Shown here piece by piece: positions 8,222-30,743 of a stretch of DNA of 34,806 nt. A program made the translations under genes and the position numbers. A model generated the notes under the pieces. It was not told the origin of the DNA, did no database searches, and saw only the letters and a list, made by a program, of their open reading frames with translations. Positions within the stretch are counted from its first letter, which is position 1. Every line of letters starts with the position of its first letter. Origin of the DNA: Coriobacteriia bacterium (lineage in GTDB: Bacteria > Actinomycetota > Coriobacteriia > Coriobacteriales > Eggerthellaceae); contig JAUNIP010000015.1 of the NCBI GenBank assembly GCA_030523425.1, positions 1-34,806 of the forward strand, read 5' to 3'.

Positions 8222-8267
8222 CCGCCCGAAAAGTGGTGCGATAATTGGCGCAGAAGATTTCGGGCGG
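8222..8267 (+). promoter_or_regulatory. Inverted repeat around a -10-like box, candidate operator
   Basis: CCGCCCGAAA (8222-8231) and TTTCGGGCGG (8258-8267) form a perfect 10-bp inverted repeat. The 26-nt spacer contains GATAAT (8240-8245), a plausible -10 box for the downstream flavin reductase gene, whose start is at 8328. No clear -35 box is visible. Confidence 0.45.
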
Positions 8268-8327
8268 AACACGGGATTACCGCTAACGGGAGCGCATACC
8301 CCGCCGTCCGGCGTTCAGGAGGGGAAC

Positions 8328-10286
8328 ATGAACAGGGATTATCCGAACCTTTGCCAGCCGTTAGACGTATGCGGGCTGCGCCTGCGCAACCGCATGTGCT
8401 CGGCGCCTATGGGCGCCACCGACGTTGACGCACAAGGCACACCCGGGCCGCGCACCTTGGGCTTCTACGAAGCACGCGCCCGCGGGGGCGCTGCCATCGT
8501 GACCGTTTCTGAATTGGTGGTGCATCCTGAAACCGACGGGTCGCAGATGCTGCACCTAAGCCTGAAAACCCCTGGTCAGTTGGCTGCCTTCACCTATGTG
8601 GCGGACGCCATTGCCCGCCACGGCGCCATCCCCAGCATAGAACTTTCCCATTCCGGGCAGTACGCCGGCACCTACATGGTGGACAAAGCCGCCAAGGGCG
8701 AACTGTGCCAGTACGGCGCCAGCGACGGCGTGCGCCCCGACGGTATAAAGGTGAAGGCCCTGACCGCGCAACAGATTGATTCTATCGTGGAAGCCTACGC
8801 CGAAGCGGCCGCGTTGGCGCAGCGCGCGGGTTTCCGCATGTGCATGGTGCACTGCGGCCACGGGTGGCTGATCAACCAGTTCCTAAGCCCGTATTTCAAC
8901 AAGCGAACAGATGAATACGGCGGCAGCCTGGAAAACCGCACGCGGCTGGCCCGCCGCATTCTGCAGGCCATTCGCGAAAAATGCGGCCCGCGCTTCGCAA
9001 TAGAAATGCGCATGAGCGGGTCGGAGCTGTTCGAAGGCGGCTATGACCTGGAAGAAGGCGTGCGCATTGCCCAGGCGCTGGAAGAATTGGTGGACATCAT
9101 CCACGTTTCCGCCGGCAGCTACCAGTTCGGCTTCAGCATCACCCACCCCAGCATGTTCCGCGACCACGGCTGCAACGTGTATTTGGCAGCCGAAATCAAG
9201 AAGCATGTGAGCAAGCCGGTGGCAACGCTAGGCGGCCTTTCGGATCCTGCCCAGATGGAAGAAATCATCGCCAGCGGCCAAGCTGACCTGGTGGCCATGG
9301 GCCGTGGCCTGTTGGCCGACCCCGAATTGCCCAACAAGGTTATGTCCAACCGCGGCGACGAGATTGTTCGCTGCATGCGCTGCTTCACCTGCATGGCCGA
9401 ACGCCCCGTCACGCAGACGCGCCGGTGCAGCTTGAACCCGCGCATCGGGCGCGAACTGGAAGGGCACGCCATTGTGCCCGTGCCTGAGCTGGACCGCAAG
9501 CGCGTGTTGGTGGTAGGCGGCGGCATCGCGGGCATGGTGGCGGCCTACACCGCCGCCAAGCGCGGCCACCGCGTTACCCTGTGCGAAGCCGGCCCGCGGC
9601 TGGGGGGCATCCTTGCCACCGAAGCGGCGGTTCCCTTCAAGCAAGACATGTACCAGTTGGGCATTACCTACGCTACGCTGTGCGAACGCGCTGGCGTGGA
9701 TATTCGCCTGAACACGCTGGTAGACGCCGCCTGGGCCGAAGAATTCGGCGCTGATGCGGCCGTGGTGGCCGTGGGGTCTGAGCCCATGAGCCTTAGCTTT
9801 TTGCCCGTGAACGAAGATGCGTACGTGGTGAATGTGGAAGAGTTGTACCTGGGCGGCGCCGCCGTGACCGATGAAGTGGTGGTAGTAGGCGGCGGCCTGA
9901 CCGGCGCCGAATGCGCGCTGAAGTACGTGCGCGAAGGCAAAAAGGTTCACCTGGTGGAAATGCGCGACGGCATTGCCATAGACGCCAATTGCCGGCACCG
10001 CCCCATTCTGCTGAAAGAAATTGAAGACAGCGCCATTGACGTGGTGGTGAACGCCCGCGCAAAGGCTGTGACCGCCGAAGGCGTAACCGTGACCCTGCCT
10101 GACGGCAGCGAACAGCTGATTGCCGGCACCACGGTGGTAAGCGCCATCGGGCAGCGCAGCCGTAAAGCCGCAGTGGAAGACCTGCGCGACGCGGCACCTT
10201 GGGTGCGCGTGATAGGCGATGCATGGCTGCCCCGCAACGTGACCGCCGCCGTCTACGAAGGCTTCCATGCCGCGCTGGACATTTAA
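8328..10286 (+). CDS. Old-yellow-enzyme/2,4-dienoyl-CoA reductase-type Fe-S flavoprotein
   Basis: 652 aa. Residues 1-370 form an FMN-binding TIM barrel (QPLDVCGLRLRNRM, CGHGWLINQFLSPYFNKRTD, YGGSLENR, VATLGGL, AMGRGLLADP). A cysteine cluster C349, C352, C355 and C367 probably binds a [4Fe-4S] centre. The C-terminal half has two dinucleotide-binding motifs, VLVVGGGIAGMVAA and VVVVGGGLTGAECALK, for FAD and NAD(P)H. This layout is shared by 2,4-dienoyl-CoA reductase, BaiCD/BaiH bile-acid reductases and enoate reductases, which reduce C=C bonds with NAD(P)H; the substrate is unknown. The start at 8328 has AGGAGGGG just upstream. A cupin gene follows 14 nt later. Confidence 0.93.
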   Translation: MNRDYPNLCQPLDVCGLRLRNRMCSAPMGATDVDAQGTPGPRTLGFYEARARGGAAIVTVSELVVHPETDGSQMLHLSLKTPGQLAAFTYVADAIARHGAIPSIELSHSGQYAGTYMVDKAAKGELCQYGASDGVRPDGIKVKALTAQQIDSIVEAYAEAAALAQRAGFRMCMVHCGHGWLINQFLSPYFNKRTDEYGGSLENRTRLARRILQAIREKCGPRFAIEMRMSGSELFEGGYDLEEGVRIAQALEELVDIIHVSAGSYQFGFSITHPSMFRDHGCNVYLAAEIKKHVSKPVATLGGLSDPAQMEEIIASGQADLVAMGRGLLADPELPNKVMSNRGDEIVRCMRCFTCMAERPVTQTRRCSLNPRIGRELEGHAIVPVPELDRKRVLVVGGGIAGMVAAYTAAKRGHRVTLCEAGPRLGGILATEAAVPFKQDMYQLGITYATLCERAGVDIRLNTLVDAAWAEEFGADAAVVAVGSEPMSLSFLPVNEDAYVVNVEELYLGGAAVTDEVVVVGGGLTGAECALKYVREGKKVHLVEMRDGIAIDANCRHRPILLKEIEDSAIDVVVNARAKAVTAEGVTVTLPDGSEQLIAGTTVVSAIGQRSRKAAVEDLRDAAPWVRVIGDAWLPRNVTAAVYEGFHAALDI

Positions 10287-22899: not shown

Positions 22900-23133
22900 T
22901 GGGCGTAAATCGAGCCAAGGGTGCAAATTCGATTACGCCCAAATCGGGCAGATGCAGGCTTTTGGGCGTAAATCGAGCCAAGCGACCCATGTTTGTACTT
23001 TCCCTTTACCGCTCCCTTCGATGGACGTCCGCAGGGGGAAGCAGGAGCGCGGGTTGTGTTTCCCCGGATTGCGTTTTCGAAGCGCATGCTGGGGTTGACC
23101 TATGCGCGAATTGCTGGTCTGCGCACCATCCCG
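22900..23133 (+). repeat. 234-bp direct repeat, copy B
   Basis: Second copy of the repeat at 18703-18936. Similarity ends exactly at 23133, where the truncated recombinase frame begins, so the repeat boundary and the coding break coincide. It contains one TTACGCCCA palindrome (22933-22971). Confidence 0.93.
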
Positions 23134-23706
23134 CTGATACGAGACACGCTTAACCGCCTGTGGCACATAAGGGCCGACCAGCAGAAGGCGTGGTCGCTCA
23201 TAGGGGCGCCCGCCCCCGACTTCTACGTGTGCGGCCACAATGATGAGCAAAACCGCCCCTACAACCCCACGCAGCTGGGGAAGGACTTCGCGGCGTTCTG
23301 CAGCATGAACGGCTTCGACTGCACGTTCCACATGCTGCGGCACACCTTCGCCACGCTGATGATAGCCAGCGGCGTGGACGTGCGCACGGTGGCCAGCTAC
23401 CTGGGGCATGCCAACCCCAGCATGACGCTGGACCTGTACGCCAGCGTTGATCCGGATGCGAAGCGCGCGGCGGTCGGGCGGATCCAGGCGGTGTTCAGCG
23501 AGGGCTTCGCCGCAAGGGAAACCGCGAAGATCGCAAGCGGCGCCGGGGTGGCAGCGCCCGCGCCCGCGGCGGCCGACACCCTGCTGGCCACGCAGGCGCC
23601 CCCGCCTGGAAACCCCGCGCTGGCGCTGCTGATGTCCGACCAATTCGACAAGCTGGACGACAGCGAGAAGCTGGCGCTGCTGAACCTGGCCCGGAAGGTG
23701 GGGTGA
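23134..23706 (+). pseudogene. Tyrosine recombinase (phage-type integrase), N-terminus missing
   Basis: 190 codons of the C-terminal catalytic domain. The box II motif HMLRHTFATLMIASGVDVRT, then YLGHANPSMTLDLYASVD with the His and nucleophile Tyr, are intact. The core-binding domain and the first catalytic Arg region are absent: upstream the frame runs into the 234-bp repeat, whose translation shows no integrase similarity. An ATG at 22993 keeps the frame open but would give a chimeric N-terminus. The C-terminus has an Ala/Pro linker and a short helix. It is probably a deletion remnant of the integrase that used the tRNA site. Confidence 0.85.
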
Positions 23707-23730: not shown

Positions 23731-24077
23731 CTATCCCTTCGCCCCAGAAACTGCGGCAAGCACCTTCGCCAGAAAGGCGTCATCGATGCTGCCAAGCGGG
23801 CTGTCCCGCAGCAGTTCGTGATAGGCAAGACGGAAAAGGTAGTCCGTCCGTATGCTGGACGGAGCGCGAAGCCCGCATTCCTGCCAGTTCTCTATCGAAA
23901 TGTCGCCACTCTCATTCCGGGGGGCTTCGAGGTGATCTTTAGCGCGACGGCGGTCGCCTGGTCTCGGTCGACGTCAAGTATGAGCACAGGACGCACCTTG
24001 CCGATGTCGGGATGGTCCAGGAAATGCAGATATGTCAACCAAATCTGCCCCGGCCTCACGTTAGACCAGGTCATCAT
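23731..24077 (-). pseudogene. PemK/MazF-type toxin with a frameshift
   Basis: Translation starts at ATG 24077 (or 24074), overlapping the end of the antitoxin gene by 17 nt. The N-terminal part VRPGQIWLTYLHFLDHPDIG, then KVRPVLILDV, is the PemK signature. After ALKITSKPP the frame ends early at 23892. In the other frame the protein continues with RNESGDISIENWQECGL, then APSSIRTDYLFRLAYHELL, to a stop at 23731, giving the expected family length of about 115 aa. One missing base in the C-run on the coding strand (G-run 23919-23924) explains this. PemK toxins are ribonucleases that cleave mRNA. The frameshift could be a real inactivation, a slippage switch or a sequencing error. Confidence 0.8.
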
Positions 24078-24333
24078 AGAGCCCTTCGTCGTCGTCGTCC
24101 AGCTGGGCGGGCAAAATCGCGAAGCCAAGCGCTGGATCTATGTCGATGACGTCGACCGTGGCCCAGTCGATGTTGGGGATAGGTGCCTGGGGCGAGTCGT
24201 CGACCGGGCTGATGACCACCCACGGCTTCGAGTTGCGCAGTACGGTGACAGGGCGCTTCGTCCTGTTCACGGCGGCGGCTATCTTGGAGAAGTTCGCCCT
24301 GGTCTCGGCGACGGTTGCAGTCAGCTCAGACAT
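24061..24333 (-). CDS. Phd/YefM-type antitoxin
   Basis: 90 aa. The N-terminal half matches the Phd/YefM DNA-binding fold (TVAETRANFSKIAAAVNRTK, then PVTVLRNSKPWVVISPVDD). The C-terminal half is acidic (PAQLDDDDEGLYDDLV), as expected for the toxin-binding part. GAGGA lies 4 nt upstream of ATG. The gene overlaps the start of the PemK-like toxin gene, the usual antitoxin-first order. Antitoxins of this type repress their own operon; the palindrome at 24360-24371 is the likely site. Confidence 0.88.
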   Translation of the reverse strand: MSELTATVAETRANFSKIAAAVNRTKRPVTVLRNSKPWVVISPVDDSPQAPIPNIDWATVDVIDIDPALGFAILPAQLDDDDEGLYDDLV

Positions 24334-24490: not shown

Positions 24491-27400
24491 TTACCTTCCC
24501 AGCCCGCTGAACCGCTCGAAGAACGCCTTCAGGCGGTCGAGCACGCGGGCCTTCATGCTGGCGTACTCCCCCTCCGGGGCGAAGCGGCTGGGCTTGGCGG
24601 TCATCAGGGCCGCAACCTCGGTGCCGCTCTCGGGCACGCCACCATCGGCGAAGGAGCGTTCCACCAGCGCGCGGGTGGCGTCCGCATCCAGGGCCTCCTC
24701 ATCGATGATGGCCCCAAGCTCAGCCTCTTTGGCTTCCGCCACATAACGCTCCCAGTCGGCGGCAACGTCGTCGCTGGCGCTCAGGCCGTCAATGAAGCGC
24801 TCTATCAGGTCGCGCTTGTTGCGCAGCTCGTAGCTGGCGGAGATGGCGCGCTCGATGTCGCCTAGCACCACCTTGTCGGCGCAGTGCCCGTCGTGGTACT
24901 TCTGCACCAGCATCAGGATGTAGTCGATGTTGATGTCAACCTGCTTCAGAAGCTCTATCTCGAACACCAGGTCGTCGTTGATGATGGCGGCCTCCTCCCC
25001 GCCGCCGCGCATCTGCTGGTACAGGTCGGTGTACACGCTGCGATAGTCCTGCTCGTCGCGGGGCGAAAGAGTGTCGTCGGCGGCGAAGTCGTCGAAGGCC
25101 GTCAGGATGTTGCGCAGCCGCAGGATCACGCCGAACAGGCGGATGAAGTCCCTCTGGTCCTTCTCGCCCATAAGCGCCCCTGCAAGCAGCGCCTCTAACG
25201 GGAAGCGCTCGGAAAGCTCGGCCAGGCGCTGCCGGTACTCGCCCAGGTACTCCGCGTAGGGCTTCAGCAGCACCACGCCGCCGGCGTCGGCGTCGCCGAA
25301 CAGGCTGATGGCGCGGTTCACCCGGTCCTCCAGGTTGCGGAAGCACACGATGTTGCCGTAGGCCTTCACGCTGTTGAGTATGCGGTTCGTGCGCGAAAAC
25401 GCCTGTATCAGCCCGTGGTCGCGCAGGTCCTTGTCCACCCACAGCGTGTTCAGCGTGGTGGCGTCGAAGCCGGTCAGGAACATGTTCACCACTATGGTCA
25501 GGTCAACCTGGCGGTCCTTCATGCGGTCGGAGAGGTCCTTGTAGTAGTTCTGGAAGCCGTCTGGGCCCGAAGCCGTGCTGTAGCTGGTGGAGAACAGGGC
25601 GTTGTAGTCGGCTATGGCCGCGTCCAGGAAGTCACGCGATGGCGCGTCCAGGCTCTCCACGTCGAAGGTCTCGTCGGGCAGCCCGCACCCGTCGTCGGCC
25701 TCGTTGGGCCCGAAGCTGTAGATGAGCGCCACCTTCAACTGCTCGCCGCCGCGTTCAGCCTGCAGCCGCTTGAACGCGGAATAGTACACCTTGGCCATGT
25801 CGATGCTGGCTGTGGCAAGGATGCTGTTGAAGCCCATGACGCGCCTGCCCCCGTGGGTGTATCCGCTGGCGCGCTTGGTCTTCTGCGCATAGTGGTCAAG
25901 GATGTAGTTCACCACTAAGTCCACGCGCCGGCTGTCCTTGTAGGCGCCCTCCCGGTAGATGTCGTACACCTTCTCGTCGGGGAAGTCCTCCCGCTTCCTG
26001 ATGGTCTGGATGTAGTCCACGCGGAAGGGCAGCACGTTCTCGTCGCGGATGGCGTCCACTATGGTGTAGGTGTGCAGCCTATCGCCGAAGGCCTGCTGGG
26101 TGGTGCGCAGGTTGGCGTTTCGCCCCGTGCCCGCGTTCTGGGCGAAGATGGGCGTGCCGGTGAAGCCAAAAAGGTGGTAGGCCTTGAAGTGCTTGGTGAT
26201 GGCCACGTGCATCTCGCCGAACTGGCTGCGGTGGCACTCGTCGAAGATGATCACGCAGTGCTTGGCGTACACGTCGTGCTTGGGGTTCTTCTTTATGAAG
26301 CAGGACAGCTTCTGGATGGTGGTCACCAGGATGCGGCAGTCGGGGTTGGCCAGCTGGCGGGAAAGCACCGTGGTGGTCTCCGTGGCGTCAACGGCGCCCT
26401 TCTCGAAGCGGTCGTACTCCTTCATAGTCTGGTAGTCCAGGTCCTTGCGGTCCACCACGAACAGCACCTTGTCCACGCCGGCCATGGCGCTGGCCAGCTG
26501 GGCGGTCTTGAAGCTGGTCAGCGTCTTGCCGGAGCCGGTGGTGTGCCACACGTAGCCGCCTGCGCGAAGCGTGCCCAGCATGGACTTGTCGTTCTCGCTG
26601 ATGAGCATGCGGTTAAGGATGCGCTCCGTGGCCACTATCTGGTAGGGCCGCATGACCAGCAGCTTCTCGTCCACGTCGAACACGCAGTACTTTGTCAGGA
26701 TGTTCAGCAGCGCGTGGCGGGCGAAGAAGGTGGCGGTGAAGGGCGCCAGGTCGTAGATGGGCACGTTGTCGGCATCTGCCCACCAGCTGGTGAACTTGAA
26801 GCTGTTCGACGTCTTCTTGCCCTTGGCCTTGCGCCCCGCGCGCTCCCGGATGGCGGAGAAGCGCGTGGTGTTGGAGTAGTACTTGGTGTGCGTGCCGTTA
26901 GAGATGACGAAGATCTGCACGTACTCGTACAGCCCGCAGCCGCTCCAGAAGCTGTCGCGCTGGTAGCGCTCTATCTGGTTGAACGCCTCAGCCAAGGCCA
27001 CGCCGCGGCGCTTCAGCTCCACGTGCACCAGCGGCAGCCCGTTCACCAGCACGGTCACGTCGTAGCGGTTCTCGTAGGCGCCGGTGTTGGTGTACTGGTT
27101 CATCACCTGCAGGCGGTTGTTGTGGACGTTCCGCTTGTCTATCAGCTGCACGTTGCGCGTGCTGCCGTCGTCCCGGGTAAGGGCGAACACGTGGTCGCGC
27201 TGGATGCGACGGGTCTTGTCGGCTATGCCGTCGTTCTCCGCGGCTATCCAGCCCTTGAACAGGCGGTTCCACTCCTTGTCGGTGAAGACCATGCGGTTCA
27301 GGGCTTCAAGCTGCGTGCGCAGGTTGGTGATAAGCTCTTGTTCGCTGGCAACGACAAGCCGATCGTAGCCCTGGCGCACCAGCTGGTCGATGAACGCCTG

Positions 27401-27589
27401 CTCCAGCTGGGCCTCGCTCTGGTAGGCAGACGCCCGTCGCTGCTGCTTGGGTAGAGTCGAGCACACCGTTGCCTGCCCTCCGAACGCCATGACGTCGAAG
27501 TCGATGCTGCCCGGCAGGTCGTCCGCTAGGGATGCCTGGGGCTCGTCGGTGGGAAAGGAAGTGACTTCGTAATCGTAGGAATCAATCAT
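24491..27589 (-). CDS. hsdR: Type I restriction enzyme R subunit (translocase/endonuclease)
   Basis: 1032 aa. The N-terminal nuclease domain has the PD-(D/E)xK-like pattern Asp177 (YDVTV) and E191-L-K193 (VHVELKRRG). The SF2 helicase motor has Walker A at about 350-356 (TTGSGKT), the DECH box at 450-453 and GFTGTP soon after; the second RecA domain contains FLTGFDATTLNTLWVDK and QAFSRTNRI. It cuts unmodified DNA after ATP-driven translocation, together with HsdM and HsdS. The start at 27589 is chosen because it overlaps the stop of the 146-aa gene (ATGA) and has AAGGAG upstream; an upstream in-frame ATG would overlap that gene. Length is typical and no disruption is seen. Confidence 0.96.
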   Translation of the reverse strand: MIDSYDYEVTSFPTDEPQASLADDLPGSIDFDVMAFGGQATVCSTLPKQQRRASAYQSEAQLEQAFIDQLVRQGYDRLVVASEQELITNLRTQLEALNRMVFTDKEWNRLFKGWIAAENDGIADKTRRIQRDHVFALTRDDGSTRNVQLIDKRNVHNNRLQVMNQYTNTGAYENRYDVTVLVNGLPLVHVELKRRGVALAEAFNQIERYQRDSFWSGCGLYEYVQIFVISNGTHTKYYSNTTRFSAIRERAGRKAKGKKTSNSFKFTSWWADADNVPIYDLAPFTATFFARHALLNILTKYCVFDVDEKLLVMRPYQIVATERILNRMLISENDKSMLGTLRAGGYVWHTTGSGKTLTSFKTAQLASAMAGVDKVLFVVDRKDLDYQTMKEYDRFEKGAVDATETTTVLSRQLANPDCRILVTTIQKLSCFIKKNPKHDVYAKHCVIIFDECHRSQFGEMHVAITKHFKAYHLFGFTGTPIFAQNAGTGRNANLRTTQQAFGDRLHTYTIVDAIRDENVLPFRVDYIQTIRKREDFPDEKVYDIYREGAYKDSRRVDLVVNYILDHYAQKTKRASGYTHGGRRVMGFNSILATASIDMAKVYYSAFKRLQAERGGEQLKVALIYSFGPNEADDGCGLPDETFDVESLDAPSRDFLDAAIADYNALFSTSYSTASGPDGFQNYYKDLSDRMKDRQVDLTIVVNMFLTGFDATTLNTLWVDKDLRDHGLIQAFSRTNRILNSVKAYGNIVCFRNLEDRVNRAISLFGDADAGGVVLLKPYAEYLGEYRQRLAELSERFPLEALLAGALMGEKDQRDFIRLFGVILRLRNILTAFDDFAADDTLSPRDEQDYRSVYTDLYQQMRGGGEEAAIINDDLVFEIELLKQVDINIDYILMLVQKYHDGHCADKVVLGDIERAISASYELRNKRDLIERFIDGLSASDDVAADWERYVAEAKEAELGAIIDEEALDADATRALVERSFADGGVPESGTEVAALMTAKPSRFAPEGEYASMKARVLDRLKAFFERFSGLGR

Positions 27590-28026
27590 GCGCCAGGCTC
27601 CTTGACATCGATGATGAAGTACGGGCTCATGCTGTGCCTTGAGGCCTCTGTCAGAACTTTTCCCGACGATGCCACGTAGCACTTGGACATGACCCTAGGA
27701 TCGGCTCTCTCGAAGCGGGCCACCTTGAACCAGCAACTGAAGTCCGCGGCGTCATCTCGATAGTAGGCCGGGATACCCTCCTTGGGTGGTGTCTCTCTGG
27801 TTATCGCTACCACATGGGCCCACCAACGATCGGTCCCGCCGCTGTGAATGAGCAGGATTTTGGAATCGCCCTCAGCAAGGATGCCTTCGGCAACCCTGGC
27901 CGAAACGGGAGACCCCAGCTTTCCGTACCAAACAAAGCCCAGCTCGGCAATCACATCTTCGTGGGCAGCGATGGTGCCGCACGGAGGTGCGAAGTTCTCT
28001 GCGAACCGAAGAGCGACCGTGCGCAT
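27586..28026 (-). CDS. 146-aa protein inside the type I restriction operon
   Basis: Not assigned to a named family with certainty. Visible features are VWYGKLGSPVSARVAEGIL, KILLIHSGGTDRWWAHVVAI, a YYRDD segment, CWFKVARFE and a conserved-looking end RHSMSPYFIIDVK. Beta-strand-like blocks with aromatic residues recall PUA-like/EVE domains, which can read modified bases, but this is an inference. The start codon follows the hsdS stop directly (TAGATG), and the stop overlaps the hsdR start (ATGA). It is therefore translationally coupled on both sides and probably part of the restriction system or its control. Base composition is similar to hsdR. Confidence 0.85.
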   Translation of the reverse strand: MRTVALRFAENFAPPCGTIAAHEDVIAELGFVWYGKLGSPVSARVAEGILAEGDSKILLIHSGGTDRWWAHVVAITRETPPKEGIPAYYRDDAADFSCWFKVARFERADPRVMSKCYVASSGKVLTEASRHSMSPYFIIDVKEPGA

Positions 28027-29157
28027 CTAGATCGCCTTCTTCTCCGGGAATGACAGCAGCTTGTCCCGATAATAAGCGTACTGTTTGCGGCGGGCTTCGA
28101 TTTCGGCTGGAAGGCCCTGCGAGATGTCGTTTACCAGTGTGTCGAACTGGTCGAGGATGGCCACGATGCGGGCTTGTTCTCCGAGGGGCGGGACGGGAAT
28201 TTTTGCCTTCAATATGTTGTCGTTATAAAGCCTGGAAATAGTTCCACCAGCTGAAATATACCAGGGTGAGGTCTGGTAGATATACGATAAGTAACTATTC
28301 GTGACTTGGGTGCCATCGTGCTCAAGCCACACTATGTTGCTGTCTTGGAAGTACGAGGGTTTCCCGTCGAATACCACAGTTCTACCAATGGTGCCGGCAG
28401 CAGATATCAGTATGTCCCCTTTTTTTGGGTAGCTATACTTTCCAGCATAATCATCGAACAGTTCCTTGGAAATGAACGCATTTGCTTGCCCGCCGAAAGT
28501 GCCAATCTTGTAAAAGGGGATATCCCCTGAATCAGATGTCTGATGCTTCATAATCCGCTTGCACATCCTGACTGCACCGACTTCACCCAACGTGGCCCAC
28601 GGCACGTTGTTGCCGAAAGTCAACAGTCGGTCGCGGTAGTGGGCGTACTGGGCCCTCCGGGCCTCCAGCTCCGCCTCCAGCTCCGCGAAGGAGTCTAGCA
28701 CCCGCACAATCTCCTCCTGCACCTCAACCGGCGGCACGGGGATACGGAGTTTTGCAAGGTCTTTCCCGTGGACGTGCGGAACACCGCTGCCTTTCTTGAG
28801 AGAATACAGCCAATCTTGTTTTGAAACCAACAGTTGATAAATGAACTTTGGTGTAATTACTCTTTGGTCAAGGGGCTCAACCGAAAACGCGTCCGAAACC
28901 CAAATAGGTTCTGTCCACAAAGAAACGTAACCAGCATAAGCCCCCGAGCCAGCAACAACAACGGTCGTGCCTTCCCTGTTTGATTCACCATGATAGTAAG
29001 CAGGCTTTTGCCCGCCAGCAACTACAGGTATCGTTCCTTCCTTCGTTTCCTTCTGTGTTATCGTTTTCCCTCGAGTGAAAGAACAAACGTCGTAGATATT
29101 GCAAAACTCCACCCCATCAGGGCAAAGCCGCTGCACCAGCTCGTCAATCCTGCTCAT
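28027..29157 (-). CDS. hsdS: Type I restriction-modification specificity subunit
   Basis: 376 aa. Two target recognition domains (about 10-140 and 185-325) alternate with two conserved helical regions. These are EIVRVLDSFAELEAELEARR with QYAHYRDRLLTFG in the middle, and RIVAILDQFDTLVNDIS with QYAYYRDKLLSF at the end. Each recognition domain ends in a [KR]IPVPP motif (LRIPVPP, KIPVPP). HsdS decides which bipartite DNA sequence the complex methylates and cuts. The start at 29157 overlaps the hsdM stop (ATGA). The recognition-domain DNA (about 28200-28560 and 28740-29100) is much richer in A+T than the flanking genes, as expected for exchanged segments. It is intact and slightly shorter than usual. 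Confidence 0.95.
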   Translation of the reverse strand: MSRIDELVQRLCPDGVEFCNIYDVCSFTRGKTITQKETKEGTIPVVAGGQKPAYYHGESNREGTTVVVAGSGAYAGYVSLWTEPIWVSDAFSVEPLDQRVITPKFIYQLLVSKQDWLYSLKKGSGVPHVHGKDLAKLRIPVPPVEVQEEIVRVLDSFAELEAELEARRAQYAHYRDRLLTFGNNVPWATLGEVGAVRMCKRIMKHQTSDSGDIPFYKIGTFGGQANAFISKELFDDYAGKYSYPKKGDILISAAGTIGRTVVFDGKPSYFQDSNIVWLEHDGTQVTNSYLSYIYQTSPWYISAGGTISRLYNDNILKAKIPVPPLGEQARIVAILDQFDTLVNDISQGLPAEIEARRKQYAYYRDKLLSFPEKKAI

Positions 29158-30743
29158 CGCGCAGTCCCTTCCAAGTCGGCCACTATGGCGTCTATCTGGC
29201 GGCGCAGCTCGTCTTCGCGGGCCACTATGCGGGCTATTTCGGCGTTTAGGGCCTGGATGTCCACCTCTTCGCGGTCGTCGGGCTTCTCCACGTAGCTGCT
29301 GACGGACAGGTTCACGTCGTTGGCAATCACGTCGTCGTTGGGCACCAGCTTGCTGAAGTGGTCCTCTTCCGTGCGCTCTTCGATAACTGCCATGATGCGG
29401 TCGATGTTTTCCGGCATCAGCTTGTTCTTGGAGTCGCGGCGCTGAAACTGGTCGCCGGCGTCCACGAACAGGATGTCGTTGGCGCGCTTGTTCTTCTTCA
29501 GCACCAGGATGCACGTGGCTATGGTGGTGCCGAAGAACAGGTCGGGCGGCAGCTGGATGACGGCGTCCACGAAGTTGTTCTGCACCAGGTACCGGCGGAT
29601 CTTCGCCTCCGCCCCGCCGCGGTAGAGCACGCCAGGGAACTCGACTATCGCCGCCGTGCCTTCGGTGGACAGCCACGAAAGCATGTGCATGGTGAAGGCC
29701 AGGTCCGCCTTGCTGGCCGGCGCCAGCACACCCGCGGGCGAAAAGCGCGCGTCGTTGATGAGCAGCGGGTTGGCCTTGCCTTCCCACTTGATGGAGTAGG
29801 GCGGGTTGGACACGATGGCGTCGAAGGGCTCGTCGTCCCAGTGGGCGGGCTCCTTCAGCGTGTCGCCCAGCGCTATGTCGAACTTGTCGAAGTTGATGTC
29901 GTGCAGGAACATGTTGATGCGCGCCAGGTTGTAGGTGGTCAGGTTCACTTCCTGCCCGAAGTAGCCGTTGCGCACGCTGCCGGGGCCAAGCAGCTTCGCG
30001 AACTTCAGCAGCAGGCCGCCGCTTCCGCAGCAGGGGTCGTACACCTTGTTGATGCTGGTGCGCCCGCCGATGGCTATGCGCGCCAGAAGCTCGCCGACCT
30101 CCTGGGGCGTGAAGAACTCGCCGCCGGACTTGCCCGCGTTGCTGGCGTACATGGTCATCAGGAACTCGTAGGCGTCGCCGAACGCGTCGATGCTGTTGTC
30201 CTGGAAGGCGCCGCCGAAGTCCAGGGAGCCTATCTTGGTGAGCAGCTTCACCAGCTTCTTGTTGCGCTCGATCACCGTGTTGCCCAGCTTGGCCGAGTTC
30301 ACGTCCATGTCGTCGAACAGGCCCCTCAGGTCGCCTTCGCTTTCGGTGCCCACGGCGGAGCCTTCGATGTTCTTGAACGCCTGGGCCAGCAGCTCGTTTA
30401 AGTCCTGGCCGTCTTCGGCAAGCCGCATGCCGTCCTTGTCAACGCGGGAAAGGATGTTGCAGAACAGCTCGCTTGGCAGGATGAAGAAGCCCTTCTCCGC
30501 CACAGTGACCGCGCGGCCGAACTCGGCCTGGGCGTCGGGCAGCTTGGCGTAGTTAAAGGCGGGGTCGCCCTCCTGCTGGGCCAGGTAGGCGCACAGGTTC
30601 TCGCTGATGAAGCGGTAGAACAGCGTGCACAGGATGTACTGCTTGAAGTCCCAGCCGTCCACGCTGCCGCGAAGGTCGTCGGCGATGGACCAGATGGTCT
30701 TGTGCAGCTCGGCGCGCTGCTGGTCGCGGGTGGTGTCGGGCAT
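29154..30743 (-). CDS. hsdM: Type I restriction-modification DNA methyltransferase subunit
   Basis: 529 aa. An N-terminal helical HsdM_N domain (about 10-150) is followed by the N6-adenine methyltransferase domain. That domain carries the SAM-binding motif DPCCGSGG (236-243) and catalytic NPPY (313-316), preceded by GEFFTPQEVGELLA. It methylates adenine in the target chosen by HsdS and is needed for restriction by HsdR. The start at 30743 has AAGGAG 6 nt upstream; a longer frame to 30851 lacks one. TACAAT at 30784-30789 on the minus strand is a plausible -10 box without a clear -35. It is the first gene of an operon: hsdM, hsdS, a 146-aa protein, hsdR. Confidence 0.96.
   Translation of the reverse strand: MPDTTRDQQRAELHKTIWSIADDLRGSVDGWDFKQYILCTLFYRFISENLCAYLAQQEGDPAFNYAKLPDAQAEFGRAVTVAEKGFFILPSELFCNILSRVDKDGMRLAEDGQDLNELLAQAFKNIEGSAVGTESEGDLRGLFDDMDVNSAKLGNTVIERNKKLVKLLTKIGSLDFGGAFQDNSIDAFGDAYEFLMTMYASNAGKSGGEFFTPQEVGELLARIAIGGRTSINKVYDPCCGSGGLLLKFAKLLGPGSVRNGYFGQEVNLTTYNLARINMFLHDINFDKFDIALGDTLKEPAHWDDEPFDAIVSNPPYSIKWEGKANPLLINDARFSPAGVLAPASKADLAFTMHMLSWLSTEGTAAIVEFPGVLYRGGAEAKIRRYLVQNNFVDAVIQLPPDLFFGTTIATCILVLKKNKRANDILFVDAGDQFQRRDSKNKLMPENIDRIMAVIEERTEEDHFSKLVPNDDVIANDVNLSVSSYVEKPDDREEVDIQALNAEIARIVAREDELRRQIDAIVADLEGTAR

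Follow-up and report, generated by a model that had tools for sequence, protein, structure and literature searches.

A PUA-like gene within type I restriction operons and its predicted resemblance to readers of modified bases

Described systems closest to the locus

Descriptions of type I restriction enzymes give them three subunits, and in a review of these enzymes nothing was found on an accessory or fourth gene. Extra genes have been recorded in the gap between hsdS and hsdR, among them darTG2 and other cargo (PMC12255303). The gene analyzed here occupies the same gap, but it is a single gene rather than a toxin-antitoxin pair or a two-gene cluster, its place varies among relatives, and it is always tied to a restriction-modification locus. 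In phase-variable type I systems with duplicated hsdS (PMC7394358) the published switch is one of specificity. Several relatives of our locus likewise carry a recombinase and inverted hsdS repeats, but in two of them the inversion would also toggle the putative reader gene.

EVE and DCD domains that accompany HsdRMS were predicted by Bell and co-workers to read modified DNA (PMC7641849). The small protein is like them in the order of its strands and helices and in its link to type I genes, but the EVE model PF01878 misses it; passages of the main text of that paper mention neither PF24405 proteins nor a small gene coupled to hsdM or hsdS. The closest solved folds are YTH domains (YTHDC1, YTHDC2, YTHDF and the N-domain of Thermococcus gammatolerans McrB), which align over the whole domain. 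The YTH cage for m6A (PMC6112328) may have counterparts here in a strand-2 tryptophan after a Gly-x pair and in an aromatic residue before strand 5. However, identity to YTH domains is about 9%, the asparagine that bonds m6A is not conserved, and here the domain makes up a bacterial gene of its own within an hsd operon. The N-terminal domain of DS-9A (NF053862; PMC13092281) has in common with the small protein both PF24405 and the motifs H..W..K, PxYY and WF[KN], whereas DS-9A itself is a metallophosphatase fusion of 470-530 aa with a HAD partner and our protein is a lone domain inside a restriction operon. No description of the small gene was found in a literature search conducted mainly outside subscription journals. 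The preliminary description of the locus had regarded such a built-in factor as foreign to the standard three-gene model; the fourth gene is indeed undescribed in the literature searched, but the idea of readers near type I systems had already been advanced for EVE/DCD domains.

The four-gene operon and its relatives

The window, that is, the whole stretch of 34,806 nucleotides analyzed (Coriobacteriia bacterium, contig JAUNIP010000015.1), contains four contiguous genes on the (-) strand, in the order hsdM, hsdS, small ORF, hsdR. The N6-adenine DNA methyltransferase subunit is encoded by hsdM (29154-30743; TIGR00497, 708 bits; PF02384 and PF12161), the specificity subunit by hsdS (28027-29157; PF01420, 179 bits; PADLOC Specificity_I) and the motor/nuclease subunit, with an EcoR124-like C-terminus, by hsdR (24491-27589; TIGR00348, 534 bits; PF04313, PF18766, PF22679 and PF12008). 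With hsdM, hsdS and hsdR in one operon, the window holds a type I restriction-modification system. The small ORF (27586-28026) is an open frame of 146 aa that starts with ATG at 28026 and runs to 27586. Its ATG directly adjoins the hsdS stop codon TAG (28029-28027), with no spacer, and its stop codon TGA (27588-27586) overlaps the hsdR ATG (27589-27587) in a 4-nt ATGA at 27586-27589. The hsdM stop codon (29156-29154) and the hsdS ATG at 29157 form an ATGA overlap of the same kind. The preliminary description had reported both contacts of this ORF and its place between hsdS and hsdR, and the junctions together with the flanking family matches bear it out. Judged from the stop/start overlaps, it is a fair inference that the small ORF is translationally coupled to its neighbors. 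A chance ORF is ruled out by 20 homologues of 36-70% identity to the window protein, by 15 invariant alignment columns and by a match to the family PF24405 in 21 of 21 proteins. Downstream of hsdR, at 23892-24333 on the (-) strand, lie small Phd/YefM-like and MazF/PemK-like ORFs, both just under the Pfam cut-offs, which probably form a toxin-antitoxin pair. The C-terminal part of a tyrosine recombinase (22993-23703, (+) strand) faces the operon and is probably what is left of a mobile element at the island's edge.

Homologues were searched for by sequence only, blind to context. A single-sequence scan of genome contigs gave no confirmed homologue, and a profile scan of the contigs then succeeded; a tblastn search of phage and plasmid collections gave no match to the small protein. 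The 20 standalone homologues come from 19 genomes of Coriobacteriia and Clostridia and from one viral contig. The window gene and all of these homologues (21/21) lie in a type I or type ISP restriction locus, and none was found elsewhere; some hsdS genes of relatives were assigned by tblastn or ORF similarity rather than by a Pfam scan. The family is rare: of 396 genomes from the class, 8 have PF24405, as compared with 60 of 149 for HsdR.

The place of the gene within these loci varies. It stands between hsdM and hsdS in 8 of the 21 (L023, L024, L026, L027, L029, L031, L032 and L035), after hsdS with hsdR-hsdM upstream in 5 (L028, L030, L033, L034 and L038), and in the order hsdM-hsdS-gene-hsdR in 2 (the window and L040). 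Two copies follow a silent hsdS half (L021, which is L018, and L025, which is L012), two follow a single-chain type ISP enzyme (L036 and L037), one follows hsdR (L039), and one lies at a contig edge beside an hsdS-type recombinase and a restriction helicase (L022). The small gene mostly overlaps or abuts hsdM or hsdS, and in 20 of 20 homologues its distance from the end of the upstream gene ranges from a 4-nt overlap to a gap of 35 nt. Because the place varies and is mostly beside hsdM or hsdS, the link to the methylase/specificity part at least equals that to HsdR. Thus the association with restriction operons presumed in the preliminary description holds throughout, homologues outside such operons being absent from the set, while the exact hsdS-hsdR gap recurs in only 2 of the 21 loci. 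Some loci have further features. In L022 (23-430) the gene upstream of the small one is the end of a HipA_C-like gene, not an hsd gene, on a weak match below the cut-off at the contig edge. The type ISP gene of L036 (3950-9004) is present as two ORFs of 797 and 883 aa, as against one of 1713 aa in its sister L037, and this split is a frameshift or an assembly error. L040, an IMG/VR contig listed as viral, carries two recombinase-like ORFs after the operon and, judged by eye, may represent not a phage but an integrative element. A gene with a Schlafen/AlbA_2 domain lies between hsdR and hsdM of one relative (L015:12707-14047, (-) strand).

The enzymes that the small gene accompanies are very diverse. 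At least six lineages, 20-32% identical to one another, can be distinguished among the partner HsdM proteins; the type ISP enzymes have to be added to these, and the C-terminal domains of HsdR also differ among loci (EcoR124_C, T1RH-like and EcoEI_R_C). The median identity of the small proteins is 54% within HsdM lineages and 53% between them; the window and L021, for example, have small proteins that are 70% identical and HsdMs that are 25% identical. Since the identity of the small protein ignores the HsdM groups, the gene must have joined unrelated enzymes repeatedly, and the comparison indicates that it has been freely exchanged among unrelated HsdM lineages.

Two relatives carry the small gene in an invertible arrangement. 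In L018 the silent hsdS half (frame start near 8263) joins the small gene through an ATGA, and the block at 8249-9346 is bounded by inverted repeats of 22 nt (100%) and 24 nt (96%). The hsdS that is expressed has its second half (12213-11527) flanked by the same repeats, and a Pfam-confirmed tyrosine recombinase lies between the hsdS cassettes (L018:8249-12213). L012 (8233-11456) has the same cassette plan and a tyrosine recombinase but different repeats; the repeats of the two loci measure 22-27 nt. Read from this layout, inversion in L018 and L012 would bring the small gene, along with a new hsdS half, downstream of hsdM, and the small gene could be phase-switched together with specificity. 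No inverted repeats of 18 nt or more were found between 27500 and 31000 of the window, and phase variation of the small gene is therefore not claimed there.

Family, predicted fold and candidate pocket

The window protein matches PF24405, named 'Pua-like', with 38.3 bits over residues 6-128 (profile 3-138 of 176), above the curated gathering cut-off of 27 bits. It also scores 37 bits against NF053862, the model of the anti-phage phosphoesterase DS-9A, over the N-terminal domain only; the protein stops at 146 aa and lies below the NF053862 cut-off of 420, and it is not a DS-9A member. PHROGs and PADLOC contain no family for the small ORF. Sequence comparison gave no link to YTH or EVE: the Pfam YTH model found no match among the 21 members up to E 10, nor did PF01878 in the Pfam comparison of the same 21. 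A search of PDB with a profile of 21 rows, again up to E 10, returned no YTH chain and only chance matches, as did a PDB sequence search with the single window protein. Alignment with hhalign to an EVE alignment gave a probability of 0.1%, this EVE alignment consisting of 3 divergent sequences and being too thin to decide.

AlphaFold, run with 21 natural homologues, predicted a beta-barrel with a pLDDT of 92.9 and a pTM of 0.87. With 8 natural homologues the pLDDT was 91.4; the strands were identical and the helices almost so, and the order of these elements resembles the published EVE order (PMC7641849). The top Foldseek matches in PDB were YTH domains with m6A, THYN1 with 5mC DNA, EVE proteins and the EVE domain of VcaM4I; the best E value was 7e-3, none reached 0.001, and TM-scores were at most 0.52. 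The Lon N-domain was also among the matches, clearly below YTH and EVE. The best 50 rows of VIA-align were all YTH, with a top Z of 8.1 over 124 residues (rmsd 3.5 A) and still 7.0 at rank 50, where models without a clear match give Z 4-5 as a reference. The YTH domain of T. gammatolerans McrB (6p0f) stood at rank 44 in Foldseek and was not among the VIA rows listed, an absence that speaks neither for nor against the match. A Z of 7-8 alone may reflect a common arrangement, and one family in all listed rows, aligned across the full domain, is more specific. Taken together, the assignment of the predicted fold to the modification-reader (YTH/EVE-like) class is well supported, as the preliminary description had guessed from aromatic beta-strand blocks: PF24405 lies above its cut-off, and the structural neighbors belong to YTH and EVE, the EVE domain of VcaM4I among them. 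The kinship to YTH is a resemblance of the predicted fold rather than proven homology. We therefore write of a YTH/EVE-like fold, not of a YTH family member, because no YTH or EVE sequence match was obtained.

Fifteen residues are invariant in the 21 homologues (L6, P14, H22, G30, W33, G35, K36, G38, L58, S62, P80, V118, S120, S121 and S134). Position 88 (Y88) is aromatic in 21 of 21, and Y89, W69 and W99 are each conserved in all but one. In YTHDC1 the cage for m6A is formed by W377, W428 and L439 (PMC6112328). Matched by chain order alone, W33 (strand 2) would correspond to W377, and Y88, ahead of the long fifth strand, to W428. The YTHDC1 residue that bonds m6A, N363, lacks a conserved equivalent in the family; position 11, placed by eye, is asparagine in 12 of 21. 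MJECL36, with a YTH-like fold and a cage, nevertheless does not bind m6A (PMC6112328). W33, Y88/Y89, W69 and W99 are candidates for the lining of a putative base-binding pocket.

Possible roles of the small protein

That type I enzymes spare the host DNA while sites are being methylated, or after a change of specificity, is commonly attributed to kinetics and ClpXP. Our best explanation, which we consider about evenly poised between right and wrong, is that the 146-aa protein reads modified bases in the manner of YTH and EVE domains and that m6A-writing type I and type ISP enzymes keep its gene as an optional fourth one. The small protein would flip a methylated base, most likely m6A written by its partner, into a putative pocket of conserved aromatic residues, and the action of the restriction enzyme would then be governed by how the DNA nearby is methylated. 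m6A is preferred as the ligand because an m6A product and ATP-driven translocation are what the sequence-divergent partners have in common. As a leading guess for the output, cutting might be restrained where DNA bears the enzyme's own mark, as when sites that are new or hemimethylated are being filled after specificity switching or replication. A fuller version is much more tentative, namely that type I and ISP enzymes carry a portable YTH-like reader of their own m6A that tunes restriction and that some species switch it together with an hsdS half by inversion.

PUA-like folds may have RNA, protein or free nucleotides as ligands. The main rival, ranked close behind restraint on self-marked DNA and held by us to be possible though doubtful, is that the reader binds 5mC, 5hmC or foreign m6A in phage or plasmid DNA and brings HsdR to it, so that the type I enzyme would gain a second, type IV-like activity. 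Such a role was predicted for EVE/DCD domains with HsdRMS (PMC7641849), and PF24405 stands N-terminal in an McrB-like GTPase, a position taken by EVE/YTH specificity modules, and is found in the anti-phage DS-9A. Recruitment, however, requires a protein interface, while the HsdR/HsdM partners are so divergent and include type ISP, and the gene is coupled to hsdM or hsdS more often than to hsdR. An interface would likewise have to be conserved if the protein acted in the manner of the Lon N-domain, binding HsdR, HsdM or HsdS for assembly or for proteolysis of HsdR with no reading of bases, which is hard to square with free exchange among such partners. Tight coupling, as suggested by the overlaps, would suit a stoichiometric subunit, the Lon N-domain does appear among the Foldseek matches, and restriction alleviation of EcoKI proceeds by ClpXP proteolysis of HsdR (PMC4231737); but YTH and EVE rank clearly above it and YTH fills the best 50 VIA rows, and we hold a pure protein regulator to be unlikely. 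Even less probable is a passenger, that is, an independent defense- or toxin-type traveler in an hsd locus that serves as an insertion hotspot. The small gene does move between unrelated hsd operons, and the gap between hsdS and hsdR is known to house other genes, darTG2 for instance (PMC12255303), but a passenger would hardly be confined to type I/ISP loci in several arrangements with upstream overlaps or gaps of at most 35 nt, two copies lie inside an invertible hsdS cassette, and a toxin-antitoxin partner is never constant. Both of these last readings are thus less likely than base reading.

If base reading is right, a portable reader across unrelated type I/ISP enzymes would be a fourth, methylation-sensing component. 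The gene would allow a direct test of whether the enzyme's own mark is read, or modified phage DNA as predicted for EVE/DCD, and if it reads m6A the small bacterial protein would be a practical reagent. Two further candidates were set aside, a transcriptional C-protein on the grounds of the beta-barrel fold and no match to a helix-turn-helix family, and a toxin on the grounds that no constant antitoxin partner is present.

Outside the standalone subfamily, PF24405 forms the N-terminus of the AAA_5 McrB-like GTPases in L051 and L052 (1483-3147 in each), close downstream of a PglZ-domain gene; it is possible that this fusion is an undescribed reader-McrB arrangement in a BREX-like locus. In McrB homologues the domain for modified-base specificity is usually N-terminal (PMC7641849, PMC11090510), and the position of PF24405 there favors a general function of the domain in sensing. 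PF24405 is also the N-terminus of metallophosphatase proteins in L041 and L046, where a HAD gene follows as in the DS-9 plan, and in L047. The DS-9-like pair of L046 (49-5669), a PUA-like/metallophosphatase protein and HAD, lies downstream of N6-methyltransferase and HsdS-type genes.
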